This document shows positions 7,496 to 37,918 of a stretch of 64,000 nucleotides of DNA, in pieces. The stretch is from positions 2,728,001 to 2,792,000 of the forward strand of contig JANFAH010000005.1 of assembly GCA_024663395.1 (NCBI GenBank), in the 5' to 3' direction. Origin of the DNA: Pisolithus tinctorius (taxonomy: Eukaryota > Basidiomycota > Agaricomycetes > Boletales > Pisolithaceae). The position numbers and the translations under genes are program-made. Positions within the stretch are counted from its first letter, which is position 1; each line of letters begins with the position of its first letter. Under the pieces are notes generated by a model. The model ran no database searches. It had not been told where the DNA came from and was given only the letters and a program-made list of their open reading frames with translations.

Positions 7496-8150
7496 CAGAC
7501 CCATCTTTATGTTTTGTCAGAGGTACATCATACTGTGGACAGGCCTGTCCATATGTTGCAACAATATAAATAATACTGCTGAAGGGCCTGTCCTTATGTT
7601 GTGACTCTATTAAATGATATTAGTGCTGGGCCTGTCTTTATGTTTCAACAGCAGTACATCTTACTATGGACAGGCCCATCCATATGTTGTGACATTATGA
7701 AACAACATTACTGACAGGCCCATCTCTATGTTGCAACAGGGGTACAGCTTATTTTGAATGGGCCTGTCTATATGTTGTGACACCATAAATGATATTACTC
7801 CCAGGCCCATCCATATGTTGCCAACTTGTATTCTAATCATAGACAGGCCTGCCTTGATGTTGTGACAGAGGCGTAACCTACTAGGATGGGCCCATCCATA
7901 TCTTACAGTAGCTCAGTATACTTAATTGGTCACAGGCCTGTCTAAATGTCTCAACATCCTTACCCACCACAGGCCCTCCCTTATGTTGTGGTGATGCCTT
8001 ACAGGCCCATACATATGTTGCTTTCACTTTAGTCCCTCAGGCCTGTCCATGTGTACCAGCTAATCTATTTAGGTGGGCCTGTCTCAGGGTCTATATAAGT
8101 GTTGGTGTTTTGGTGCACAGGCTGCCCATGTGTTGTGACTAAGTGTGACT
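7496..8150. repeat. Degenerate tandem repeat, about 17 units of 32-47 bp
   Basis: The motif ACAGGCCTGTCCATATGTTG recurs with changes at about 7496, 7538, 7583, 7627, 7670, 7714, 7760, 7803, 7843, 7886, 7932, 7968, 8001, 8039, 8074 and 8117. Most units carry either the palindromic form ACAGGCCTGT or the form GGCCCATCC, followed by (T)ATGTTG and a variable AT-rich spacer. Units are too diverged for simple recent slippage. No reading frame or splice-site pattern runs through it. Confidence 0.85.
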
Positions 8151-9252
8151 ACACTATGTGTACCCATTTGTTGGTACCCCTGCATTCACTTCAATAAATC
8201 ATCACCTAGGCATTCAGTCAAGTTGTCAAGATGATCTCAAGTCACTCACCTATACTCTGATTTATCTGCTGTGAGGATTGCTCCCTTGGCTCAGCAGCAT
8301 CAATACTACTCTCTCCAACAACACCATACTGAAGCTGAAAAAACATATCTCAGTTGATGGATTCTGCAAAGGTCTCCCTCACAACTTTTTCCACTTTCCT
8401 CAAGTATACCCATTCTCTCACCTATATGGCAAAATCTGACTTTAAATATGTTTGTTCCTTGTTATGCAACTGTGCACCCAATTCATCAGCTGAGAATTTT
8501 GGTGTGCTTGATCTCAGTAGGCTCACTGTCAAGCAACCTTCTCTACCACTTTCAAATGCATGTGAGAATGCCCATGACTATGTTGTATGCCTGGGGACCA
8601 GCTGTGATGGCAGCAATTCCAAAGGATGAAGGTGAGTGAACCAGATGATTTCTTCTGGCCACGTCTCGTGGATGCGAGTGTTCCCAGGGAAGGTGCATGG
8701 GATTGTGACCAGCAGCAGCTTTTTACTCCCTGTCACAGTAACAGGTGACCTAAAGTTTTCTGAGCAGTGTGATAAATACTTACATTGTTGTATGAATACT
8801 AGCCTACTCCCCACAGCACATGTATCTGCTTCTGATGCTCATATACACATTTTCTCAAGACAATGACACCTTCCTCTCACGATGTGGTAAGTAAAGATGT
8901 TTTTGTTATTCCAAGTACATGTTCCCATTACAGCTGTGTCAAGTCATATCAAGTGGTGTATTACAGGTAATCATGATATCATTGACACAAGAACTACAAA
9001 GTTAGAGGGACATTGACATTTTGTATCCAAATGACAGGGAGTACTACTACTAATAGCCTGTGTATGGACAGCTTGTGTGGCAGCTATGACAGCCTGTGCT
9101 TATGTACATGGATCTCTGGCTACTGAAAAACCCACCAGTATGGGAGTGCTTCAAAGGTTGAGTACTAAGTGTTCAAATGACCATAGGAAATAGCACAAGG
9201 AATTTGTCACATTGTTAAATGACTATTTTATGAGCTGAAAGAATTTTTTGAA
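8151..9252. other. No supported gene; possible coding fragments at 8354-8866
   Basis: Short frames on both strands (8354-8629 plus, 8578-8814 minus) look weakly protein-like and have GTGAGT-type motifs nearby, but no consistent model or known domain emerged. The stretch is the 3' flank of the GTPase gene on the minus strand. 8880-9250 shows nothing recognisable. Confidence 0.4.
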
Positions 9253-12200
9253 TCATAGCATTGGACAGATCAAACATATGCACTCACATAGACGATTCTC
9301 CAAAATTATTTGCACAAGAGTCTGACACAAATCTTCCAAATTATGACCATGCTGCTGGACAGCAGATTTGACAGCCTGGTGGATGGTGGCTTTAATGCCA
9401 GAACTCTTGTATTCCTTGACAGCCAGAGCAATAACATCTTTCTTCCTAGGTGCTTTTCCATTTTGCAATAAAAAGTAACAATACTCAAAAATGAGCAGGC
9501 AATCTGAAGTAATGAGTATCCCCAATGTAGAGGGTGACTACCACTCACAAACTCCATGCTCAGCAATTGAGAAAGTGGTGACCTTGGGTGATGGCAGCTT
9601 GTATTTGCCTTTTTGTGCAACTTCAGGCTGTGATTACATGTGTCATATTGTGACAAGAGTATTCCCATCCCAAAATGGAACTTACAACCTGTGTTGCAGC
9701 AGCAACAGGTCAGCACAATAGTGATATGCCTATAGCCAGGATGAAAACCAATTATCAAACCACTCACATCCTGGCAAATCACAATGAAGATGACAGGAAA
9801 AATTAGGTCAGTGGAGATTCAGTTTTCATGGAATGGAATGGCTTACAAGCTGGGAATACACCAGAAAGCCACATGTGGGTGAGTCCACCCAGCAAATGCT
9901 GATCCACTGACATTACTCACATCCTATCATGCCATCAAGGAGAGTACAAGGAAGCAAGTCAGCAAATAGCCAGCTAATCCTGGCATAAAATCACTCACAA
10001 GCTGTCATGGCACAAACAAGCAGAGTGCAGGTGGGGCCAGTCAGCAGACATCCAACCAAACCTGCCATCAAATCACTTACATGCTGTCATGGCACAAACA
10101 AGCATATTGCAAGTGGGGCCAGTCAGCAGACATCCAACCAAACCTGCCATCAAATCACTCACATGCTGTCATGGCACAAACAAGCACAGTGCAAGTGGGG
10201 CCAGTCAGCAGACATCCAACCAAACCTGCCATCAAACCACTCACACGCTGTCATGGCACAAACAAGCACAGTGCAAGTGGGGCCAGTCAGCAGACATCCA
10301 ACCAAACCTGCCATCAAATCACTCACACCCTGTCATGGCACAAACAAGCACAGTGCAAGTGGGGCCAGTCAGCAGACATCCAACCAAACCTGCCATCAAA
10401 TCACTCACATGCTGTCATGGCACAAACAAGCACAGTGCAAGTGGGGCCAGTCAGCAGACATCCAACCAAACCTGCCATCAAACCACTCACACGCTGTCAT
10501 GGCACAAACAAGCACAGTGCAAGTGGGGCCAGTCAGCAGACATCCAACCAAACCTGCCATCAAATCACTCACACCCTGTCATGGCACAAACAAGCACAGT
10601 GCAAGTGGGGCCAGTCAGCAGACATCCAACCAAACCTGCCATCAAATCACTCACATGCTGTCATGGCACAAACAAGCACAGTGCAAGTGGGGCCAGTCAG
10701 CAGACATCCAACCAAACCTGCCATCAAATCACTCACAAGCTGTCATGGCACAAACAAGCATGGTGCAAGTGGGGCCAGTCAGCAGACATCCAACCAAACC
10801 TGCCATCAAATCACTCACATCCTGTCATGGCACAAACAAGCACAGTGCAAGTGGGGCCAGTCAGCAGACATCCAACCAAACCTGCCATCAAATCACTCAC
10901 AAGCTGTCATGGCACAAACAAGCACAGTGCAAGTGGGGCCAGTCAGCAGACATCCAACCAAACCTGCCATCAAATCACTCACACCCTGTCATGGCACAAA
11001 CAAGCACAGTGCAAGTGGGGCCAGTCAGCAGACATCCAACCAAACCTGTCATCAAATCACTCACAAGCTATCATGGCATGAACAAGCACAGCATAAATGG
11101 GCCAGTCAGCAGACATCCAACCAAACCTGCCATCAAGTCACTCACAATCTGTCATGGCACAAACAAGCACAGTGCAAGTGGGGCCAGTCAGTAGACATCC
11201 AACCAAATCTACCATCAAAGCACTCACATCCTGTCATGCACAAACAAGCACAGTACAAGTGGGGAGAGTCAGCAAAGATCCAACTGAACCCACCATGAAA
11301 CACCTCACAGCCTGCAACACCACAATGATGCATATCATAAATGCAATGTATCAGTGAGCATCCTGCTAAACCTGCTGTGCCATCACTTACAAACTGTCAT
11401 ACCACACCCATATATAATGCAAGTGTCACCAATCAGTAGACATCCATCTTTATATGCAATGAAGTCACTGACAGTCTGTCACATGTGATATGTACAGTGT
11501 ATGTCAGCTCCCAATGTGCAGATTACCTTGCCATGAAATATCATACCTCCTGATATGCCACCAACAAGTGGAATCCACATGAGGTTAGCCAACCTCCAGC
11601 CAACCCTTCCATGAAATCACCCACAATCTGTCAGATCAACAAAATGCAAGGCATGTGCACCACTGGTCAGTAGACAAGATAGCTACTCCAGTCATAACAT
11701 TACTCACAAACTTTTATGCCAGGGATATGTGCAAAACATGTGAGGACATGCACTGCATTCAGCACCTACTGTGGCACCACAATCAGACACTCACTGAATG
11801 CTTGGGAAACCAACTGAGCACAGCAGATTCAAAAGCTGTTATGTCATATTTTTTCCCCATCTCAATTACTTGTCTGATCATTCTTCCCACCACCCTTCAG
11901 AATATCAGAATTTGTGATGAGATCACACTGTTGGCTTACCGGTATACAGCATATTCAATACATAATCCAATGCTTGACTGCTGTGTTGATATAAGTAACC
12001 TCTGCAGGCCTTCCTCATTCAAAGCACTTGCTGTGGACTGCATCAAAGTGGTGCAATCTGCACTCTCATTATGCATCTCTGTCAAGAATTTTTGCATCAA
12101 GCACAACCATCTGTCAAAAGTGCAATACTTACTGGTCAGTGCAAGATACATCTTAGGTGGGAATTGGCACTGGTCCAGTATCTGCTTGATGTGTGTCTGC

Positions 12201-13256
12201 CACTTTTCTAATAACAGAGTTTCCCTTTCTGGGGCTCTTTTCTTTGCTTCTTCCATCTCCAACCCTTCATCCAGAAGTTCCTCAATGGCAGCAAGATGCA
12301 ATGCATCCACCTTTGTTAGCAACACTACCACTGGGACTATGCAGATGCTGGTCAGTGATGGCCACATTTCTAGAAGTGAACATACCATGCCCTGTGTCAC
12401 ACTCATTAAAGAACTTCTGCTCAGCAGCAGTGACTGTCCTTTGGTAGTCAGTCATGGGGATGCAATACCTATGTATACCTTATGCTCAGTTGAGCCAGTA
12501 ACCACTCCAAAGGTAATTCTCACCAAATTGCATGAATCCGCTTCTGCAGTGTCCTTGCAGCTGCATGGTCAACAACAAACTTCTTCATTTTATCAAACTG
12601 CTGGGCTGATCCCGCCTCAAAACCTGAAGAGTCGTGGAATACAAACCCTGGGTTGCTCTTGAACACCAGTTCATGCTCAATGTTATGGTAGCCACGCTAG
12701 GGGTAATCAACTGTAACTTTATTTGCTGAAATCCAAGATAACCTCTTACCCCTAGACTACCTTCCACGACAACGTTGTCAATCTGTAAATTGTTAGATAA
12801 GTGTTAAAAACTCCACACAAACATACCATGTTCCCCTTTGCATCAAAGATATCAGGTTTGTCCACAGTGTTGCATACCCTCTGAAGGATGGTTGTTTTGC
12901 CAGCGTTCGCTCTGCCCATCACCAACACTCGAAATTTCTCAATTTTTGCCAAGTACTCCTTGGCCTTTTCAGGATCCATACGAAATGTGGCAGGTGAAGG
13001 AGTGGTTTCTATTCCTCGACGTCAACCACATCCACGTCCGCCAAATAATCGTAGTCATACCTATGGTAGGATTACTATCTTCTGCATTCACATTTTAGCA
13101 ACTAGTTGACCAATGACGGCAAGTAAATATGACGATACCTGCAGCTGCAGTTTCAGCGGTAACTGGACCACTGTGACTCTCGTGTGAGCGACGAGAGCGA
13201 GCAGCACTGCCAAACGGCAAGGAAGCCAGAAACTTCTTTACACGCCCGGGAGCCAT
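9253..13256 (-). CDS. P-loop GTPase (G-domain protein) with a one-codon-exon array
   Basis: Model (minus): 13256-13139, 13014-12827, 12782-12750, 12696-12524, 12468-12386, 12336-12133, 12078-11940, 11894-11795, then 26 three-base exons, then 9627-9549 and 9503-9253; about 481 aa. All junctions are in phase. Seen: P-loop GRANAGKT (about residues 73-80), HDSSGFEAGSA with the DxxG of G3 (135-138), TKVD of G4 (about 206-209), and a STQQ segment near 300. The N-terminus (MAPGRVKKFL) is basic. The C-terminus has a hydrophobic CLLIFEYCYFLL followed by a helical, Lys-rich tail. This order is typical of the large Agaricomycete family of AIG1/MMR_HSR1-like G-domain proteins; substrate and role are unknown. 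ATG 13256 was chosen because it gives the in-phase exon 1; ATG 12979 is a weaker alternative. Exon 1 is CpG-rich and the rest CpG-poor. The array lies between residue 346 and the 109-residue C-terminal part. Confidence 0.8.
9628..11794 (-). repeat. Tandem array of 27 intron-like units with 3-nt exons (82-bp minisatellite core)
   Basis: On the minus strand each unit begins with GTGAGT or a close variant. Most carry a CTGAC/CTAAC-type branch motif (about 39 nt before the end in the core), and each ends in AG (mostly GACAG). The next unit starts exactly 3 nt later in all 26 cases. The 3-nt exons start (plus coordinate of lowest base) at 9686, 9768, 9847, 9921, 9999, then every 82 bp from 10081 to 11065, then 11146, 11228, 11309, 11391, 11473, 11547, 11625 and 11708. 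The core (9999-11146) has 79-nt introns that are almost identical. Edge units are 71-84 nt and strongly diverged, yet keep the 3-nt spacing. Codons in gene order: F, I, E, T, F, A, D, I; then L, G, L, D, L, H, G, R, H, G, R, H, H, L; then D, L, D, V. All but one (GAG) are NNT, so none can be a stop. Confidence 0.9.
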
Positions 13257-23586: not shown

Positions 23587-24064
23587 CAGGAGTGACATGG
23601 TGTGACGAAATTGTGCATTACCTATACTTTTAGACATGTCATTTTCAAGGCTCACTGGTACACACATTTTAGCATATTTTATCGAGGTTTTTGCACAGGC
23701 CTGTAGCAAAAACCTGCCTCTATCCGGTCTCCAAAGCCCGAGTTCAAGAAAATTTGTTGTTGTGTAGCTATTCCAAATTTTGTAAAAATTGTGCATTACC
23801 AGTGCTCAAATTTCCTAATCGAGCTCTCCCGATATTTCAAGCACCTGCGAATCACAGACCGAGCCTCGTGTTTGGCACTTTCCCACTCTATAAGACCGTG
23901 CGACCTGCAAAGAGGAACAAGTTTTAGGTCTTGCATTTGCCCTTTTCCCCGGGTGCATAAATCTTTCGTCTGAAGAAAGAAGTTGTAGTCTCGGGAAGCG
24001 AGGTAGTACGTGCGGCTGCCCCATTTCTTGACACGTGCTGATCTTTGCAGTAGCTCCTGGGAAG

Positions 24065-26472
24065 ATGTGGTTGTTGGACGTGGATGCGGTTCTCGACTGG
24101 GAAGCGTGTATCCAACCAGCCGAACTCCGGGGGATCGTAGTCCTGAAGGAACGCGACGATATAACCACTGAATATGCCATACTGTCGCATCGCTGGACTG
24201 ACTCGGAGGTCAGTTATAAGGAGATGACCAGGCTCATGAAGATGGAAAACCAGGATAGAGAGAAGCTCAGACGGCGTGATGGTTACAAGAAGATCATTAA
24301 GAGTTGTGCATTGGCTAAGGGCAAGTACAAGTGGTTATGGATCGATACATGTTGCATCGACAAGCGAAATAGCGCTGAGCTATCGGAGGCCATCAATTCA
24401 ATGTATCAGTGGTACCAGAACTCCCAAGTGTGCTATGCGTACCTCCATGATGTCGAGGCGACCTTTCCCACGGAACCAAACGACGAAAAGTTTGCTACGT
24501 CCAAAGGTTGGCCAGAGTGGTTCGCGCGTGGCTGGACGCTCCAGGAACTCATTGCTCCGAAGAATGTCCAGTTCTTCAACAAGGACTGGGTGGGTATTGG
24601 CAACAAACGGGGCCTGGCTTCCACTCTGGAAGTCGTCACAGGAATTCCTGACAACATTTTAAAGGATGGCCTACTGTCGAAGCAGCGACCCAGTGTTGCT
24701 CAGGTAATGTCCTGGGCAGCTGACCGGAAGACGAAGCGAGTGGAAGATCGAGCGTACTCGTTGCTGGGATTGCTTGGGGTGAATATGCCGATGTTGTACG
24801 GGGAAGGAGAGAAAGCGTTTCGCCGGCTACAACTAGAAGTCATACGGGAATCCAACGATCAGAGCATATTCGCATGGGATCCGGACCGAAAGATGCCGCG
24901 ATATGGCAGCGTCCTTGCGGATGACCCGAGTTACTTTCGGGATTGCCACGGTATTGAAAGGGTGGAATTCGACAAGTTCGGTGATGAATTAATAAAGTAC
25001 ATCCGACAGTACAATCTCAACGACCCCGAGAGCCGCGAATCCGAGTTGCGTGGGGCTGCCCAGCAGCTTCACGCATTCGTTGTCACCAACGCTGGCATTC
25101 AAATTCAACTTCCCCTCATACCCTATTGCGACTCTCCATCCACCTTCAAGGCCATATTGGCGTGCCGGCAATATGGAAATCTGGTCACCGTTGATTTGGC
25201 CTCGCGCGAACTGACCTTCGACAGGTCTTGTTATCGTACGGAACTTTGCAAGACACATCCAAAGTTCAGGTCGATCTATCTTACTCATTCTCAAGATGCC
25301 AACGAGATGCAGCGGCGACTTATGCTCGACGACAGGCATGCCTCATTCTATGGCTTTACTCGCTGTGTCACCTACCCGCTTGAGCGAGTCACCCTTAATA
25401 TTGTCACACTATCGTCGCTAGCAAATGATCTCGTCATCGTAGTGTATGCCAATGGCAACAGCGGCTCTCGCTTTGCTCTTGGACTTGGAAATTATTTTGG
25501 CCAGGGATGGGTGCACGTTACCTCCAATGAACACCCTGAAACTCACGCGGCGCACGGGACAGCGAACTTCGAATTTGCCAAGAAGGTGTATGATATGATG
25601 TGGAGTGCGCATGCAGTACATGCCCGAGATATGCCCGAGCGCCATGAAGTCTGCGATGTGTACCACCTCAACACCTTCATAAAGCACGCCCACCTCCCTC
25701 GATCACTCTACGCTGCGAAGGTTGTCTGGGGTAGATGGGACGAGGGCAATCTCAAAGTTCTTGTTGACGTCAAACAATGCCCTGGTTGTTGTGCGGGGCC
25801 GCGCAAATGGACGGTTACTTCTGTTGGTGCTTTCTCCCTGGCAGTATGCAGGTGGATCTAACCATCTGTACTACCACAGAATGACTGTTGCCTTGACATG
25901 CCGGGGCTCATGGAGACGGGCTATCCGCGTGAATTTGAACTGGAATTAGATGGGAAACGTGTGCGGCTTGGTGAATCTCGTCGAAGGATTGCCGTGAGTC
26001 GTCACACAGCTCCTTAAGCATTTCTAGGGCCTGACTCAAACAGCTTGGTGATTATGGGAACTTTCCTAATGGTCGGTTTGAACGTGATGGCAACATATTT
26101 GAGGATTTACGGGCACGTGGCATTGATTGTCATCCAGTTGTCTCACGCGTATCCGGAGATGAAGATGCATTACACCACGTAGACAGTCGGGATGGTATTG
26201 TTGTGGCATTTCACAGCACAGACAAACGGGCCCTGTACCTTCCTAAGGGACTCCTGCTTCCGGACAGTCACCAACTCGTGCTACTGCTGAAAGATTTGTC
26301 CACTCGTCTTTCAGGCAAACACTTAGTGATAACGGTCATCTGTCGTTCAGATTTTTACGGAGTTGGCTGCGGGGGAGACCGTAGGAGCCTGAGTACTGGC
26401 GAGTCTTCTCCACCGAGGACTATTCTACTTTTTGTTCTGATCTGGAGTGTCAGACTCGGAATTACACCATGA
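24065..26472 (+). CDS. HET (heterokaryon incompatibility) domain protein
   Basis: Exons 24065-25822, 25880-25993 and 26044-26472; 766 aa. The start is MWLLDVDAV, the usual beginning of this family. The HET domain spans about residues 40-190 and has its three blocks: YAILSHRWTD, WLWIDTCCIDKRNSAELSEAINSMYQWY (about 95-120) and FARGWTLQELIAPK. It is followed by RAYSLLGLLGVNMPMLYGEGE, also typical. The rest (about 230-766) is the long C-terminal region seen in basidiomycete HET proteins and ends with a ...LSGKHLVITVICRSDFY block. HET proteins in ascomycetes trigger regulated cell death on non-self fusion; a similar role here is inference. The first intron's donor is uncertain (GTTGGT at 25823 gives the best protein). 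The HET reading frame itself is intact. Confidence 0.88.
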
Positions 26473-29780: not shown

Positions 29781-31376
29781 CAGTGACTTCCAAAATTGAT
29801 TCAATGTTTGCACATTTTGGGTTGTTTGTTGAATTGATCAGGAACAAAGACAAATAAGACCAAAGTGTAAGTTGATGACATAAACCATTTGCACAGGGCT
29901 ATCCATCAAAAAAAAGATTGTGTAATGTGAATGGGTATCCATGGCAATATACTTGATTTAAATCACCACATCATTGAATCAATTTTGTAACTATGTATTG
30001 GATCCATCAGAATCCAACCAATATCACATAAAACAATTTCAAAAATCATCAAAGATGGTTGCTATGGTTATTGTACCTTAGCAACCATTTCAGTCCAAGC
30101 TATTTAACCACTGTCTATGTTGTCAATGCTTCCTAACTATACTATGCACCCCATCTCCTCTGCTCAGAAGGCAAACATCATTTCTCTGGCCTGTAATGGT
30201 CATTCTACTCACACTATTGCCTCCAGGCTGGGTATCAGCCAGCCTACAGTCTCCAGGGTGCTCAAGAACCTTCTTCCTGATCAACAAGCACCTTCTTCTG
30301 GATGTCCTGCTAAGCTTTCATCCACCTCTCAGCATGCTATTATTACACAAATCACCACAGGCAAGGCCACCAATGCTATTGAGGTTACAAAGAACATCAA
30401 TTCCATAATCTCCAATCCAGTCTCCTCACAAACAGTCAGAAGGGTCCTCAGAAAACATTCATTCAAGGCTGTAACAAAGAAGAAAAACCACTCCTTTCTA
30501 TAACTCACAGGAAGAAGTGATTAGCCTTTGCTCTGAAATACAAAGAATGGACTGTGGAGGACTGGAGAAGGGTTATCTGGTCAGATGAGACCAAAATCAA
30601 TAGGATCAGGTCAGATGGGAAGGTTTGGGTGTGGAAACAGGCAGGAGAGGGGCTTATTGAGAGAGAGATACAGGGAACAGTCAAGCATGGAGGAGGAAAC
30701 ATTATGGTATGGGGATGTATGGGCTGGGAAGGTGTTGGCCACCTTGCAGAGATTGAGGGGAGGATGGACACCAACCAATATGTGGACATTTTGGAGAGCC
30801 AGTTGCTTCCAAGCTTGGGAGATTTTGGAATTCCTTTGAAGGATGTTATCTTTCAACAGGACAATGACCCAAAACATACCTCCAAAAAGGCCAAGAAGTG
30901 GTTGGAGGACAACAATATCAATGCTCTAGACTGGCTTCCACAGTCTCCAGATATGAACCCCATTGAACACCTCTGGAATCACATCAAACAGGAGCTCAAC
31001 AAGTATTCAACACAGCCAAAGGGAGTTTGGGAGGTTTGGGAGAGAGTGGCAGTGGTGTGTCAGAATTTAATTGAAAGTATGCCCAGAAGGGTCTAAGCAG
31101 TGATAAAAGCCAAGGGAGGTCATACAAAGTACTAAAATTATCAGTTTCTATATCTCTGATACACACTTCCAAAATTGCTTCAATGACATGGCAATTTAAA
31201 TTGTATATACCTTCATGGATACTAATTCAAATTACATAATTCTTTTTTTGATGGATAGTCCTGTGCAAATGGTTTATGTCATCAACTTACACTTTGGTCT
31301 TATTTGTCTTTGTTCCTGATCAATTCAACAAACAACCCAAAATGTGCAAACATTGAATCAATTTTGGAAGTCACTG
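29781..31376 (+). mobile_element. Tc1/mariner transposon with ~135-bp terminal inverted repeats
   Basis: The ends CAGTGACTTCCAAAATTGAT (29781) and its reverse complement (ending 31376) begin inverted repeats of about 135 bp (29781-29915 and 31242-31376) with very few mismatches. Both sides are flanked by TA (29779-29780 and 31377-31378), the Tc1/mariner target duplication. The element is 1596 bp. The sequence on either side is continuous with the coiled-coil gene remnant, so it inserted into that locus. Confidence 0.95.
30117..31096 (+). pseudogene. Tc1/mariner transposase with one frameshift and one stop
   Basis: The N-terminal paired-like helix-turn-helix is clear (ACNGHSTHTIASRLGISQPTVSRVL). 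The DDE catalytic part follows in another frame: VIWSDETK (first Asp), FQQDNDPKHTS (second Asp) and PDMNPIEHLW (Glu). Between them an extra A in the run near 30483 shifts the frame, and a TGA at 30518-30520 replaces an expected Arg codon (CGA to TGA). All three acidic residues remain, so the damage is recent. It encodes cut-and-paste transposition at TA sites in intact copies. Confidence 0.93.
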
Positions 31377-32357: not shown

Positions 32358-35300
32358 TCAGTACTCAGTGGCTTCCTTCAAACATTTGTGCCAACTTTTC
32401 CCATGTGCCATCAGGCTCAAGTCCAACTCTATACAATGACCTATGGGTATGATTGATGTGGTCCACACTGAGTAAAATGGTTGCCTGAATGCTGGAGGTA
32501 TCCAAAGCAGTAACCTTCCCTGTGGGCCCCTGATCCATCCATCATAATCAAGCTTGACTTCTTGAGCAAACATGTTGGGCATAAACCCATCAAAGAGTTG
32601 TTCAGGGTCATGTAGTGCATGTGAAGGTGATGATGAAAAGGAGATGGGATAACCCTTGATAACTGTAGCTCCCTTGAGTTAAACCAAAATGGATAACAAG
32701 TGAAGGATACTCACTATCTGTAGAGTGAGATAGCACAGCTATGCACTTTGGATTGAAGGTTCTCACTTTCAGCTTCTCATGGTCACTGATTATATCTCCA
32801 CAGCTCTGAACATCCCAGACTCTGATGGTGTTGTCATTTGAGCATGACACAATGCACTTGCCATCAGGGGAGAATGCAACTGAATTGACTGCATCTGTAT
32901 GACTCTCAAGAGGGCTGCCAACCTGCACACCCCTCTCAACATCCCAAATCCTCACAGTCTTGTCATCTGAGCCTGAAATAATTGTCTTCCCATTGGGGGA
33001 AAATGCAACTGAAAAGACTGCATCATTATGCCCCAAAAGAGGACTGCCAACTTGCACACCCCTCTCAACATCCCAGATCCTTATAGTCCCATCCCAAGAG
33101 CCTGAGACAATCCTCTTCCCATCAGGGGAGAACACAACAGAAAAGACTGGACCTGTGTGGGCCTCAAGAGGGCTACCAATTTGTGTACCCCTACCTGTAT
33201 TCCAGACCCTCACAGTCTTGTCCCTTGAACCTGAGGCAATCTTCCCATCAAGGGAGAATGCCACTGATTCAACTGCAGAAGTATGACCCTCAAGTGGGCT
33301 TCCAATCTGTACACCCCTTCCAGCATCCCATACCCTCACAGTTTGGTCATCTGAGCCTGAGGCAATCCTCTTTCCATCAGGGGAGAATGCAACTGAGAAG
33401 ATGGCATCTGTATGCCCCTCAATGGGGCTGAAAATCTGCACCCCACTGCCCACATCCCACACCCTCACAGTTTCATCCCAAGAGCCTGAAGCAATCATCT
33501 CCCCATCAGGAGAGAGTGCAACTGCATTGACAGCATCACTATGGCCCTCAAGTTTTCTAACCAGTGCACCTCTTTCAACATCCCACACTCTCACAGTCTT
33601 GTCATCTGAACCTGATACTATCTTCTTCCCATCTGAAGAGAATGCAACAGACTTGACTGCAGATGCACCCCTGTCAGGAGGGCTACCCATCTGAAGACAT
33701 GCCTGTGGTGCATTCCAGACCCTCACAGTTCTGTCCCAAGAACCTGAGACAATCTGTTTCCCAGCAGGGGAGAATGCAACTGAATTGACTCCATTTGTAT
33801 GGCCTTCAAGTGGGCTGCCAATCTGCACACCAATCTCAGCATCCCAGACCCTCACAGTGTTGTCCTTTGAGCCTGAGACAATGCTCTTCCCATTGAGGGA
33901 GAATGCAACTGAATCGACTCCATCTGTATGGCCCTCAAGAGGGCCCCCAATCTGCACACCCCTCTCAGCATCCCAGATCCTTACAGTGTTGTCCCTTGAA
34001 CCTGAGACAATCCTCTTCCCATCAGGGGAGAATGCAACTGAATTGACTCCATCTGTATGGCCCTCAAGAGGGCCCCCAATCTGTACACCCCTCTCAGCAT
34101 CCCAGACCCTCACAGTGTTGTCCATTGAACCTGAGACAATCCTCTTCCCATCAGGGGAGAATGCAACTGAATTGACTCCATCTGTATGGCCCTCAAGAGG
34201 GCCCCCAATCTGCACACCAATCTCAGCATCCCAGACCCTCACAGTGTTGTCCCTTGAGCCTGAGACAATCCTCTTCCCATCAGGGGAGAATGCAACTGAA
34301 TTGACTCCATCTGTATGGCCCTCAAGAGGGCCCCCAATCTGCACACCCCTCTCAGCATCCCAGACCCTCACAGTGTTGTCCCTTGAGCCTGAGACAATCC
34401 TCTTCCCATTGGGGGAGAATGCAACTGAATTGACTCCATCTGTATGGCCCTCAAGAGGGCCCCCAATCTGCACACCCCTCTCAGCATCCCAGACCCTCAC
34501 AGTGTTGTCCCTTGAACCTGAGACAATCCTCTTCCCATCAGGGGAGAATGTGAATGAATTGACTCCATCTGTATGACCTTTAAGAAAGCTGCCAATCTGC
34601 ACACCAATCTCAGCATCCCAGACCCTCACAGTGTTGTCCCTTGAACCTGAGACAATCCTCTTCCCATCAGGGGAGAATGCAACTGATTTGACTCCATCTT
34701 TATGGCTCTCAAGTGGGCTGCCAATCTGCACACCAATCTCAGCATCCCAGACCCTCACAGTGTTGTCCCTTGAACCTGAGACAATCCTCTTCCCATCAGG
34801 GGAGAATGCAACTGAGTTGACTCCATCTGTATGGCCCTCAAGAGGGCCCCCAATCTGCACACCCCTCTCAACATCCCAGACCCTCACAGTGTTGTCCCTT
34901 GAACTTGAGACAATCCTCTTCCCATCAGGGGAGAATGTAACTGATTTGACTCCATCTGTATGGCCCTCAAGAGGGCCCCCAATCTGCACACCCCTCTCAA
35001 CATCCCAGACCCTCACAGTGTTGTCCCTTGAACTTGAGACAATCCTCTTCCCATCAGGGGAGAATGTAACTGATTTGACTTCAGAAGTATGACCATGCAG
35101 TAGTTGCTGTTCAACTGGCCACCTGTTCAAGCCTCCCAACACCACTCTAGCCAGGCCTGGGAAATTTGGCAAGAGCATCATTGATAGCAATGCATTGGAT
35201 GGAATAAATGGCAATGCAGAAGCATATAGGTGTGGAGTGCTGTGCACCATCACACTACCAAAATTCTGAATCAACTTGATTTCATCTTCTACCAATTCCA

Positions 35301-37918
35301 ATATATCCTTGAAGCCATCTTGTCCCTTCACTGTTGTGTCAGATGTCATCAAATACTGTACATATGGTACTCACCTGTAGCCATGTTGCAACAGTACCAA
35401 GAGCTTTCACCCCCTTCCCAACCATCCCCAGAAGGCTTATTATCTCCAGCCAGAACAGAATTTTTTTACTTCCAATGATAGCCTTCACCAACACTGCAAG
35501 TTCCAAGTCAAACACCATCTTCTGCAGATGCCGTGCCCAGAATCGACTGGAGTAGGAGAGGTGGTGTGGAATCTTCTCCTCGATTCTCTTTGACAGATCA
35601 TCAACTTCAGCATTGGCAAGATAAGAGCTTTCCAATTCACAGATGTTGAATCGAAGATTGTCATGAAGAATCTGCAATGCAGCAAATGCTAGGTCTTTTG
35701 TATGTTGTGTGTTGGAGGTGTCAATGAAGTAGATACCACTCCGTGAATGATCCGTCAGGAAATCATAGAAGGACTCGTGAAGAGGCCGCACAGCAGAGAC
35801 ACGGTCCACAATGCCACCCAGCACTGGAGACATGAACTCGAGGATGAGAATAACATCATAGCGGTCCTGCTTGTTTGGGAAATTTTCGCGCATCGAATTC
35901 AAGGCTGCCATAGGAAGAGGTTCTAGTGTCATTACGATTTGCTGCATCACGGAGCGATATTGTTCCAGGCGTTTCCCAGATTGGGGTATGCTCCCCTCCA
36001 GTATCGCAAAGTAAGTCGTGTCCAGGAGTGTTCTTGCTTCTTCCGACTCGAGCGCCATCAAATCGTCGTAGCGTTCCTTCAGAGTTACTCCAGGTTTACC
36101 TGGCCTGATGAACTCGCAAGCCCGACGAGCCCACTCGAACAGGCCATCAGATTTTTTGACGACATTCTGGACTTCTGTTGCTCCGATGCTGGGAAAACGG
36201 CCAAGTTCCTTGGAAACATATAACCGGATGTCACGTTCCACCAACTCCCGACGGACGTTGTCCAATGAGGTTGCCTTCACGTGTGGAACATCCCTCATGG
36301 CACGTTCGATGTCCGGCAATGTTCTGGACGTCAAAAGAATCCGGAAATTGGCTGGTAGATGCGTAGCTTCCGACGTTTTCAGAAGGCTCAGGATATCCTT
36401 CCTCGATCTCTCCGGCCCGCTTTCATCCAAAGCATCGATTACCACGACCACATTCCCGACTATCTCTCCATTAATCTTCGATAGCGGCTCCAAGATGAAT
36501 CGTTCCCACTGCTGTGCCACATCGCGTGTGGTCTTCAGAGTGTGGTTATTTGACACCACATTCGACAATGCTCGTCGAAATGCCGGATCACGATCCGCCA
36601 GATCACGGGCGATGGTAGTCAGAATCTTTTCCTCCCGTCGTTCGGCCTGCCTGTCGCGAGCGAAGCAGAAACAGGTGCCGGGTGCTCCCACAGCCTTGAC
36701 CCACGACGCGATTGTGTGGGCAATGGCGGACTTTCCTCTTCCGGCCTGCCCGTGGAGCCACAAGATACGAGGCGCATTGTCGTCACTTCTGGTGATCCAG
36801 TCGATGATATCCTTCAAAATTTCTGTCCTGGTACCGTCGAGGCATTTCTTGGTCGTATTCAAGCCCGCACCAGCTGCGTAAGCCATGCCTTCGAGGTTCA
36901 GGTCTTCAAGCACGTGGGACATGTTGACCTGGATATCCCGTATCGCACGATCTCGATATTGTTGCATCAGGTCGCTCAGATTCTTGACGTGGCCACGGGC
37001 GACGGTCTGCGGGTCGGAAACAAGGCTGTCCCCAATTCTTATCGCTGACGATGTATCACATCAGCACACCGAAGCGGATCAGAGGACCATGATAAGCATA
37101 GAACCTACAGATATTCCTCTTTTCGCAATATTTTATGACGAACAGCGCTGCGACACTCATCTCCTGTGAAATCCTCCGTAACGTCTCTTTCATGCTATCC
37201 ATATTCTCGATAGTATCCTTTTCCATAAGAAATTCGTAGAGATCCTTTACGGTATTGAGGAGGCCGAACACCTCGCCGTCTAGGTTTGCTTGGTTGATGA
37301 GCAACTAATAAGGACTACGTGAGCGAGAGATCCATGAAAAGGAAGGGGGAAGTACTTGAGAAGCAGCGGTGAGAATCCCAAGTGCAAACTGGACATAAGG
37401 GTGGACCTGTGCGCTTACATCAGAGCATGCAAGCGACCGAAGTTTAAACCGCCTACATTGGATAGAGTGGTAGCAAAGGATTTGAACAATTTGAGAGGCT
37501 GGAGAATCGCCTCGATACTTTGAATCTTCGTCACCGCGATATCGGCCTGCCCGACAAGACCCACAGCTGTTTCCAATACTTGGGGGATGGGCTTCGTGTC
37601 CTGTTGTGCAGTATTGATTTGACCGCCAAGTCTGGTGTGGGTTGTCTCTGTAGTGGGAGGCTCTGATCGAGCCTGGTTCGACCGATGAAAGAGGTGTCCC
37701 ATCCTGGAGAACAGATTTCGAGGGGTATTCGCCGATGGTCCAGCGGCCGAGGGGGCGTCGGCAGAGGGGTGAGATGCTCCTTCAGACTGTTTGGGCAGAT
37801 ATCAATAAATACTATCGCGTGCAAGGTACAAAATGTGTACCGAAGGAATGTCAGGTGCGGTCGAGCTTGGTCTTTCGGAGCTAAACAAACGATGTTTCTT
37901 CAACTGCTTGCGAGCCAT
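32358..37918 (-). CDS. NACHT-WD40 protein (NLR-like), 18 WD40 repeats
   Basis: Exons (minus) 37918-37841, 37786-37457, 37406-37356, 37304-37109, 37044-35375, 35325-32715 and 32662-32358; 1746 aa, all phases agree. Residues 1-240 are a low-complexity start and a helical domain. Then comes the NACHT ATPase with Walker A GQAGRGKS (about residue 317), Walker B VVVIDALDE, and the RILLTSRTLPDIE sensor-like segment. A linker with HSTPHLYASALPF precedes the WD40 repeats (about 860-1640), and the tail contains RGPQGRLLLWIP. The layout is that of fungal NWD/HET-E-type receptors, in which the WD40 part recognises a ligand and NACHT oligomerises. That role is inferred here; no N-terminal effector domain was recognised. 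The acceptor before exon 6 (GAAG|GGA) is chosen for phase. The WD40 exon is nearly free of CpG, while the NACHT exon is not. Confidence 0.9.
33800..35095 (-). repeat. Ten near-identical 129-bp WD40-coding repeats
   Basis: The first ten WD40 repeats (43 residues each, HTDGVNSVAFSPDGKRIVSG-type) differ at only a few places. These are mainly E(R/I)GVQ, IG(G/S), the residue before DNTVR (R, M or K), and the start (T/K, N/K). The last eight repeats (32830-33800) are much more diverged. Homogeneity at the DNA level points to recent amplification or gene conversion. Confidence 0.92.

Follow-up and report, generated by a model that had tools for sequence, protein, structure and literature searches.

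Serial one-codon exons in a GTPase-like gene of Pisolithus tinctorius: a predicted array of 26 three-nucleotide exons and a family of similar arrays

Can a gene be spliced one codon at a time? The question is raised by a stretch of 64,000 nucleotides (nt) from the ectomycorrhizal basidiomycete Pisolithus tinctorius, referred to here as the window (C5:2728001-2792000, contig JANFAH010000005.1, in the 92.5-Mb assembly GCA_024663395.1). On its minus strand lies a GTPase-like gene interrupted by a long run of intron-like repeats, with three nucleotides between each repeat and the next. It is very probable that this run consists of 26 single-codon units and 27 GT...AG introns, and that the predicted codon-by-codon splicing yields a peptide of 26 residues, placed after the G domain and before a C-terminal region that is likely helical.

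The array covers 2,167 nt (11794..9628; Table 1) and parses into 27 introns of 58-84 nt, all starting with GT and ending with AG, and 26 spacers of exactly 3 nt. It is flanked by an upstream exon ending ...SWFPKHS (11795) and a downstream exon starting PEVAQKG (9627), both in phase 0. Both the unit count with its exact gaps and the codon-boundary flanks had been claimed in the original prediction and are borne out by the parse, the flanks also by the open frame. The accompanying description of the donors as mostly GTGAGT holds for the initial GT, but several donors are weaker (GTGGGT, GTATGA, GTCAGT). Translated as exons, the 26 spacers read FIETFADILGLDLHGRHGRHHLDLDV, in which the block HGRHGRHH is a repetition. 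Together with the 12 ordinary exons of the host gene (13256..9215), they give a single open frame of 481 amino acids with one terminal stop. All 26 lie between GT...AG introns and are far smaller than the limit for a spliceosomal microexon (about 51 nt or less). The central units form an 82-nt tandem repeat (16.2 copies, 93% matches). No stop-free frame of at least 150 amino acids is listed for the minus strand between 9819 and 11935, so a translated repeat body of the PRDM9 kind is not found there; on the plus strand the repeats carry three long stop-free frames, as repeats lacking stops would yield.

Support for the serial splicing of such exons comes from related proteins, 123 of which were compared (the best 120 of 538 homologue matches, and three more). 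One of these, P0030 (467 amino acids, source lgn), is encoded on a contig of 1,695 nt, while over 4 kb of genomic DNA are required for the gene that matches it. Because the introns are missing, the contig is taken to be RNA-derived, and the frame extends for 69 residues ahead of MAPGPF, which a 5' untranslated region might give. After ...LLSWFPNTK the protein continues with 44 residues, DLPPYEQPQYQQQEGETREQWYERRYQEEQEQEQQHEQEYQEQQ. An unguided walk along the array at locus L048 (C109), starting from an anchored D codon, spells residues 1-43 of this tail in order across introns of 76-83 nt, and a guided test from the same anchor chains 42 of the other 43. The sister allele L046 (C4) reads the first 17 residues and then a TGA. 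In the guided test, 1,000 trials with shuffled versions of the peptide never chain more than one residue at either locus. In P0030 the repeat bodies are absent from the protein, and the 3 nt between acceptor and donor are retained.

The second case is a public gene model, P0070 (BKA82DRAFT_4223615), which lies on a contig of 611,571 bases and carries HLVVDGGQGHYGLVGHYGLLVVDVLRGGHHVDYVRRYGDLDYNR after WFPF. This peptide corresponds to 44 of 45 one-codon exons at L049 and L050 on C41, a contig of the same length, where the introns belong to a different, 77-nt family. The exception, a GGA exon flanked by two V codons, is absent from the protein; the skipped glycine codon is a hint of optional exon skipping. 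A guided chain reaches 21 residues, compared with a maximum of 4 in 1,000 shuffles. Three further proteins on short lgn contigs (P0017, P0032 and P0117) carry unrelated peptides of a similar kind after W-F-P or W-L-Q. Searches with a protein based on the array at L024 and with the C-terminal part of P0017 gave two and five matches, with no new short-contig protein besides P0017. The serial splicing of 26 one-codon exons proposed originally is thus supported for the family, at a sister locus through P0030 and again through P0070; for the window gene it is a prediction from sequence.

The spacers also behave as codons. Among 488 parsed codons from 17 loci there are 3 stops where position frequencies predict 9.2, and all three are TGA codons of L046. 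When L048 is substituted for this sister allele, there are none in 489 codons (9.1 expected). The near-identical arrays L014, L017, L025, L026 and L048 had been dropped from the 488-codon set, and six of its loci were parsed short. Toward the array ends the codons are conserved over six array lineages, while the introns there average 0.76-0.86 identity (a comparison made without a formal test). Unit 3 encodes E (GAG or GAA) and unit 5 encodes F in 9/9 arrays, and the end codons interchange synonymously (GAG/GAA, AAG/AAA, GTG/GTT). The scarcity of stops and these synonymous changes indicate a coding constraint that the spacers of a neutral minisatellite would lack. Codon choice is also unusual. 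The third position shows a T:C ratio of 374:0 in the arrays and 142:83 in the ordinary exons flanking the window array, and the corresponding CAA:CAG ratios are 19:1 and 6:16. This choice looks splicing-aware, and would avoid splice trouble.

In the middle of the arrays the codons differ where the introns do not. Among 381 units with 79-nt introns, drawn from 20 loci, the introns are letter-identical in 424 pairs within a locus. The codons of these pairs differ at position 1 in 60%, at position 2 in 61% and at position 3 in 25%, and the whole codon is shared in 111. The first two codon positions are each more variable than every intron column in the 381 units, where the A of CTGAC is invariant (zero entropy). 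Alike repeat bodies with differing specific codons are the pattern known from PRDM9.

The constancy of the 3-nt spacing is less telling than it appears. Run over 24 sequences with no assumption about spacing, a profile of the intron only found 709 matches, and neighbouring full-length matches are 3 nt apart in 471 of 473 cases (the others are single gaps of 1 and 4 nt). However, only 61 of 515 full-length intron matches depart from 79 nt, so that about two chance spacer indels would be expected in 473 gaps. Given a free choice of exon lengths from 0 to 12 nt, a parser settled on 3 nt in 564 of the 619 internal exons of the 18 sequences (of 24) in which a start was found; the remainder includes 41 exons of 7 nt, mostly at a weak donor with a rival donor four bases on. 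This parser and the one used to compare paired arrays are greedy, misread CGA as TGA in places and stall at weak donors. The spacing is weak evidence, because repeats copy their own spacing and the central units in the window are partly plain copies. Constant spacing is accordingly no longer taken as the main argument. Stronger than the bare spacing are its persistence in the diverged end units and in both the 77- and the 79-nt intron families, the codon evidence and the sister-locus protein described above.

The window gene is one of a large family of Pisolithus genes with arrays built alike. Across the genome, 246 matches are found to a 401-nt segment of its array. Exact genome-wide matches to the context CAGNN[X]GTGAGTGATTTNATG have T as the third spacer base in 456 cases, G in 163, A in 65 and C in none, and reversed controls gave 0. 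The second intron family, with donor GTGAGTGGAGTCATGG and, at C41, introns of 77 nt, gives 486 exact matches, with C as the third spacer base in 1 among the 100 matches listed. A pattern covering both donors, AG-NNN-GTGAGTGRWKTNATG, occurs at 1,782 sites (819 and 963; reversed control 0), only three of which hold a stop (TGA or TAA, and no TAG). These are pattern matches taken without a check of each site's membership in an array, and as a count of units the figure is probably low, because diverged units escape the pattern. The first intron family accounts for some 50 array loci or more, grouped by eye among the matches listed and including allelic copies. Parsed arrays that could be followed beyond a dozen units contain 17 to 58 one-codon exons, although the final parse ends early at L011, L017, L018, L023, L026 and L047. 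A script found the exon carrying the WFP motif in 20 of 23 sequences (all except L010, L015 and L019).

Two loci of the family are of separate interest. At L045 (C7:548500-557000) more than 7 kb are occupied by array units with many Cys, Ala and Gly codons, which were parsed in pieces. The 51-unit arrays at L024 (C40:6000-15900) and L025 (C17:1191500-1201400) are letter-identical, and may represent a recent duplication, two haplotypes or one locus assembled twice.

Several observations weigh against serial splicing of the arrays, or limit how far it can be carried over to the window gene. In two annotated proteins, P0014 and P0028, the array is skipped, and P0014 (Pisolithus tinctorius Marx 270) has only 1 difference from P0030 in the 354 residues up to WFPNTK. 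Directly joined flanks, the outcome named beforehand as telling against the original prediction, are thus seen in two annotated models, whereas P0030 and P0070 include their arrays. We read the two skips as gene-caller failures; array-skipping isoforms may also exist. A W-F/L-P/Q/S motif is present in 87 of the 123 proteins, and 65 of these 87 end within 60 residues past it, several early-ending proteins reading into the intron repeat (VSDLMA...). L046 contains three TGA codon exons (near 2848, 3257 and 4896), so that some arrays may be decaying; the codons paired with them in L048 are CGA at two positions and CAA at the third. In the parse of L009 the WFP exon ends one base out of frame. The RNA origin of the P0030 contig is something we infer rather than see, and residue 44 of this protein misfits L048 (R then Q in the genome, Q in the protein). 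L048 starts only within the array's initial intron, which leaves its upstream exons outside the comparison with P0030; in L046 five of the nine exon motifs looked for were found intact. The last two codons of the C41 walk misfit P0070. The peptide of the window gene itself, even in pieces, is absent from the 123 compared proteins. Finally, identical codons are found in 166 of 755 (22%) identical-intron pairs, compared with 399 of 3,234 (12%) pairs differing at three or more sites. Codon and intron are therefore incompletely decoupled; such an excess would be expected if units carry their codons along when copied and are sorted afterwards.

If the arrays are spliced as predicted, removal of the introns would proceed by intron definition, since exon-definition complexes would scarcely fit on an exon of 3 nt. 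The similar introns would provide homology for unequal exchange, by which codons could be gained, lost and shuffled as whole in-frame units, and selection would keep adjacent codons different. Spliced in this way, an array would act as a cassette that diversifies a peptide residue by residue; the peptide is predicted to form a flexible loop on the GTPase. Exchange combined with selection for different codons is the reading that we prefer from the comparison of arrays. A length change by whole codons is seen between alleles (TAT GAG in L048, missing in L046). A role of the peptide in recognition, whether of self and non-self or of a partner, is a guess.

Instead of exchange and selection, a dedicated mutator could be aimed at the three nucleotides, with an outcome like that of a diversity-generating retroelement. 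The roughly 60% difference at the first and second codon positions beside letter-identical introns would suit such a mechanism. So would four comparisons, all with uncertain pairing of units, in which codons differ more than introns: L046/L048 (4.85% and 2.0%), the window array and L009 (17% and 4.4%), L022/L027 (25% and 2.0%) and L022/L028 (31% and 1.3%). Little can be drawn from comparisons with L017, L026 or L011, whose parses end early. However, L014 and L021, the sole well-parsed collinear pair that differs without gain or loss of units, show fewer changes in codons (2 in 114 nt, 1.75%) than in introns (103 in 2,970, 3.5%), and L024 and L025 are identical throughout. A mutator in place of exchange and selection seems unlikely.

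An introner burst, in which one mobile intron family was inserted between the codons of a formerly ordinary hypervariable exon, would also account for identical introns beside different codons: the introns would be alike because they are young, and the codons would differ because they are old. Isolated exact matches to the pattern (e.g. C4:737251 and C5:3238694), which are single introns or diverged arrays, would be in keeping with it. However, blocks of units recur within the window array (HGRHGRHH) and L049 (GHYGLVGHYGLLV), and alleles differ by the gain or loss of codon units, which fits tandem growth; insertions would have had to hit every codon boundary in phase 0 at intervals of 3 nt. 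We know of no targeting rule for intron insertion that would do so, and consider such a burst quite improbable.

Least probable of all is an ordinary intronic minisatellite, removed as one 2.2-kb intron with WFPKHS joined to PEVAQKG and the inner GT and AG inherited but unused, since the near-identical central copies, the skips in P0014 and P0028 and flank phases permitting a clean skip are outweighed by the 43 codon exons read in order in P0030 and the 44 of 45 in P0070, the three stops in 1,782 sites, the different codons between letter-identical introns and the conserved array-end codons with their synonymous changes.

Given serial splicing with exchange and selection, a broader proposal may be put forward only tentatively: that the arrays are a fungal, splicing-based analogue of immune-receptor diversity, in which hypervariable peptides are built one residue per exon, the intron serves as a homogenised recombination handle and exons are optionally skipped. 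Because each exon is a single phase-0 codon, both germline shuffling and exon skipping would stay in frame. If the proposal were true, the number of peptides specified by a single gene could be as high as 2^26 (2^58 for the longest parsed array). The arrays would in any case test the lower size limit of a spliceosomal exon and how many such exons can run consecutively, show intron definition at its limit, and offer the genome a route to residue-by-residue peptide diversification without loss of frame. They would also explain why public models of the family (65 of 87) stop just past the WFP motif.

Several known systems share features with these arrays. Schistosome micro-exon genes, with exons of roughly 6-36 nt, also produce variable proteins from many consecutive in-frame microexons, but their exons are not single codons and they have no homogenised intron repeat. 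The basidiomycete NACHT-WD40 genes, one of which lies in the window, are a fungal gene family that likewise carries tandem repeats resembling one another, and these are thought to undergo concerted evolution with selected sites; there the repeats are protein domains, not introns. The coding minisatellite of the PRDM9 zinc fingers (PMC3890296) is closer, having a similar repeat length, a near-identical body, hypervariable recognition codons and copy-number turnover. However, its repeat body is translated, whereas in the Pisolithus arrays the body is an intron and the variable codon alone is left. Recursive splicing through zero-nt exons (PMC8605326) juxtaposes acceptor and donor in the same way, and stepwise removal is plausible for the arrays too. 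In recursive splicing the acceptor joins the donor directly; here a 3-nt codon lies between them and is kept in P0030.

Isolated 3-nt exons are already published (PMC4674806; PMC12940212), as are 1-nt exons in Arabidopsis APC11 (PMC4674806) and Fusarium CYP621A (PMC12940212). The latter two resemble the present case in that an extremely small spliceosomal exon was missed by annotation. They involve one tiny exon per gene, while the Pisolithus arrays string together tens of them, every one a complete codon, with diverse content. A literature search of titles and abstract starts, with few subscription journals and no bioRxiv, returned no description of arrays of 3-nt exons. The main text of a paper on Pisolithus microcarpus progeny (PMC12409109) contains none of the words "exon", "intron" and "GTP".

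In the host protein, Pfam recognises a P-loop GTPase only (Arf, E=1e-05, above the cut-off; MMR_HSR1, below the cut-off), and a PDB sequence search with the family profile gave weak Arf-like P-loop matches and nothing else. An AlphaFold model of P0017 built from 55 sequences (mean predicted local distance difference test, pLDDT, 75; predicted template modelling score 0.70) contains a G domain, and its C-terminal part is helical. The array-like peptide of P0017 starts at residue 366, and pLDDT is below 50 at 368-376, 378-394 and 396-409; the model predicts it to be flexible, or simply leaves it unmodelled. The best Foldseek matches of the model are the bacterial dynamin-like protein BDLP (2j68, E=3e-06) and IniA, with IIGP1 (1tq6, E=5.6e-05) at rank 6 and G-alpha chains between and after these. 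The template modelling scores (0.22-0.36) are below what a whole-fold assignment as dynamin- or IRG-like needs.

Table 1. Predicted exons of the GTPase-like gene and its array, in window coordinates
Feature	Position	Strand	Basis and remarks
Exon 1, ATG, MAPGRVKKFLASLPFG...	13139..13256	-	open frame
Exon 2	13061..13081	-	open frame
Exon 3, G-domain P-loop MGRANAGKT	12827..13008	-	open frame; Pfam PF00025 Arf E=1e-05
Exon 4	12750..12782	-	open frame
Exon 5, RGYHNIEHELVF...	12524..12696	-	open frame; homologues
Exon 6	12386..12468	-	open frame
Exon 7, VPVVVLLTKVD...	12133..12336	-	open frame
Exon 8	11940..12078	-	open frame
Exon 9 (WFP exon), end ...SWFPKHS, phase 0	11795..11894	-	open frame
Array, 27 introns and 26 3-nt exons	9628..11794	-	parse; many introns with branch-like CTGAC-type motif
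One-codon exon 1, TTT F	11708..11710	-	open-frame parse
One-codon exon 2, ATT I	11625..11627	-	open-frame parse
One-codon exon 3, GAG E	11547..11549	-	parse; E (GAG or GAA) in 9/9 compared arrays
One-codon exon 4, ACT T	11473..11475	-	open-frame parse
One-codon exon 5, TTT F	11391..11393	-	parse; F in 9/9 compared arrays
One-codon exon 6, GCT A	11309..11311	-	open-frame parse
One-codon exon 7, GAT D	11228..11230	-	open-frame parse
One-codon exon 8, ATT I	11146..11148	-	open-frame parse
One-codon exon 9, CTT L	11065..11067	-	open-frame parse
One-codon exon 10, GGT G	10983..10985	-	open-frame parse
One-codon exon 11, CTT L	10901..10903	-	open-frame parse
One-codon exon 12, GAT D	10819..10821	-	open-frame parse
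One-codon exon 13, CTT L	10737..10739	-	open-frame parse
One-codon exon 14, CAT H	10655..10657	-	open-frame parse
One-codon exon 15, GGT G	10573..10575	-	open-frame parse
One-codon exon 16, CGT R	10491..10493	-	open-frame parse
One-codon exon 17, CAT H	10409..10411	-	open-frame parse
One-codon exon 18, GGT G	10327..10329	-	open-frame parse
One-codon exon 19, CGT R	10245..10247	-	open-frame parse
One-codon exon 20, CAT H	10163..10165	-	open-frame parse
One-codon exon 21, CAT H	10081..10083	-	open-frame parse
One-codon exon 22, CTT L	9999..10001	-	open-frame parse
One-codon exon 23, GAT D	9921..9923	-	parse and array-end comparison
One-codon exon 24, CTT L	9847..9849	-	parse and array-end comparison
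One-codon exon 25, GAT D	9768..9770	-	parse and array-end comparison
One-codon exon 26, GTT V	9686..9688	-	parse and array-end comparison
Post-array exon, PEVAQKGKYKLPSPKVTTFSIAEHG..., phase 0	9549..9627	-	open frame
C-terminal exon, CLLIFEYCYFLLQNG...	9288..9503	-	open frame; matching region helical in P0017 model
Last exon with stop	9215..9234	-	open frame; placement less certain

The remainder of the window contains several other features. An imperfect 44/88-nt tandem repeat is present at 7542-7821. On the plus strand there are open frames with a HET (heterokaryon incompatibility) domain (24032-25861, Pfam E=1.3e-09) and with similarity to DDE_3 transposases (30521-31096). On the minus strand, 32608-37060 holds a NACHT (NPHP3_N/NACHT) open frame and, following it, a frame with about 17.7 similar 129-nt units, WD40-like in look.

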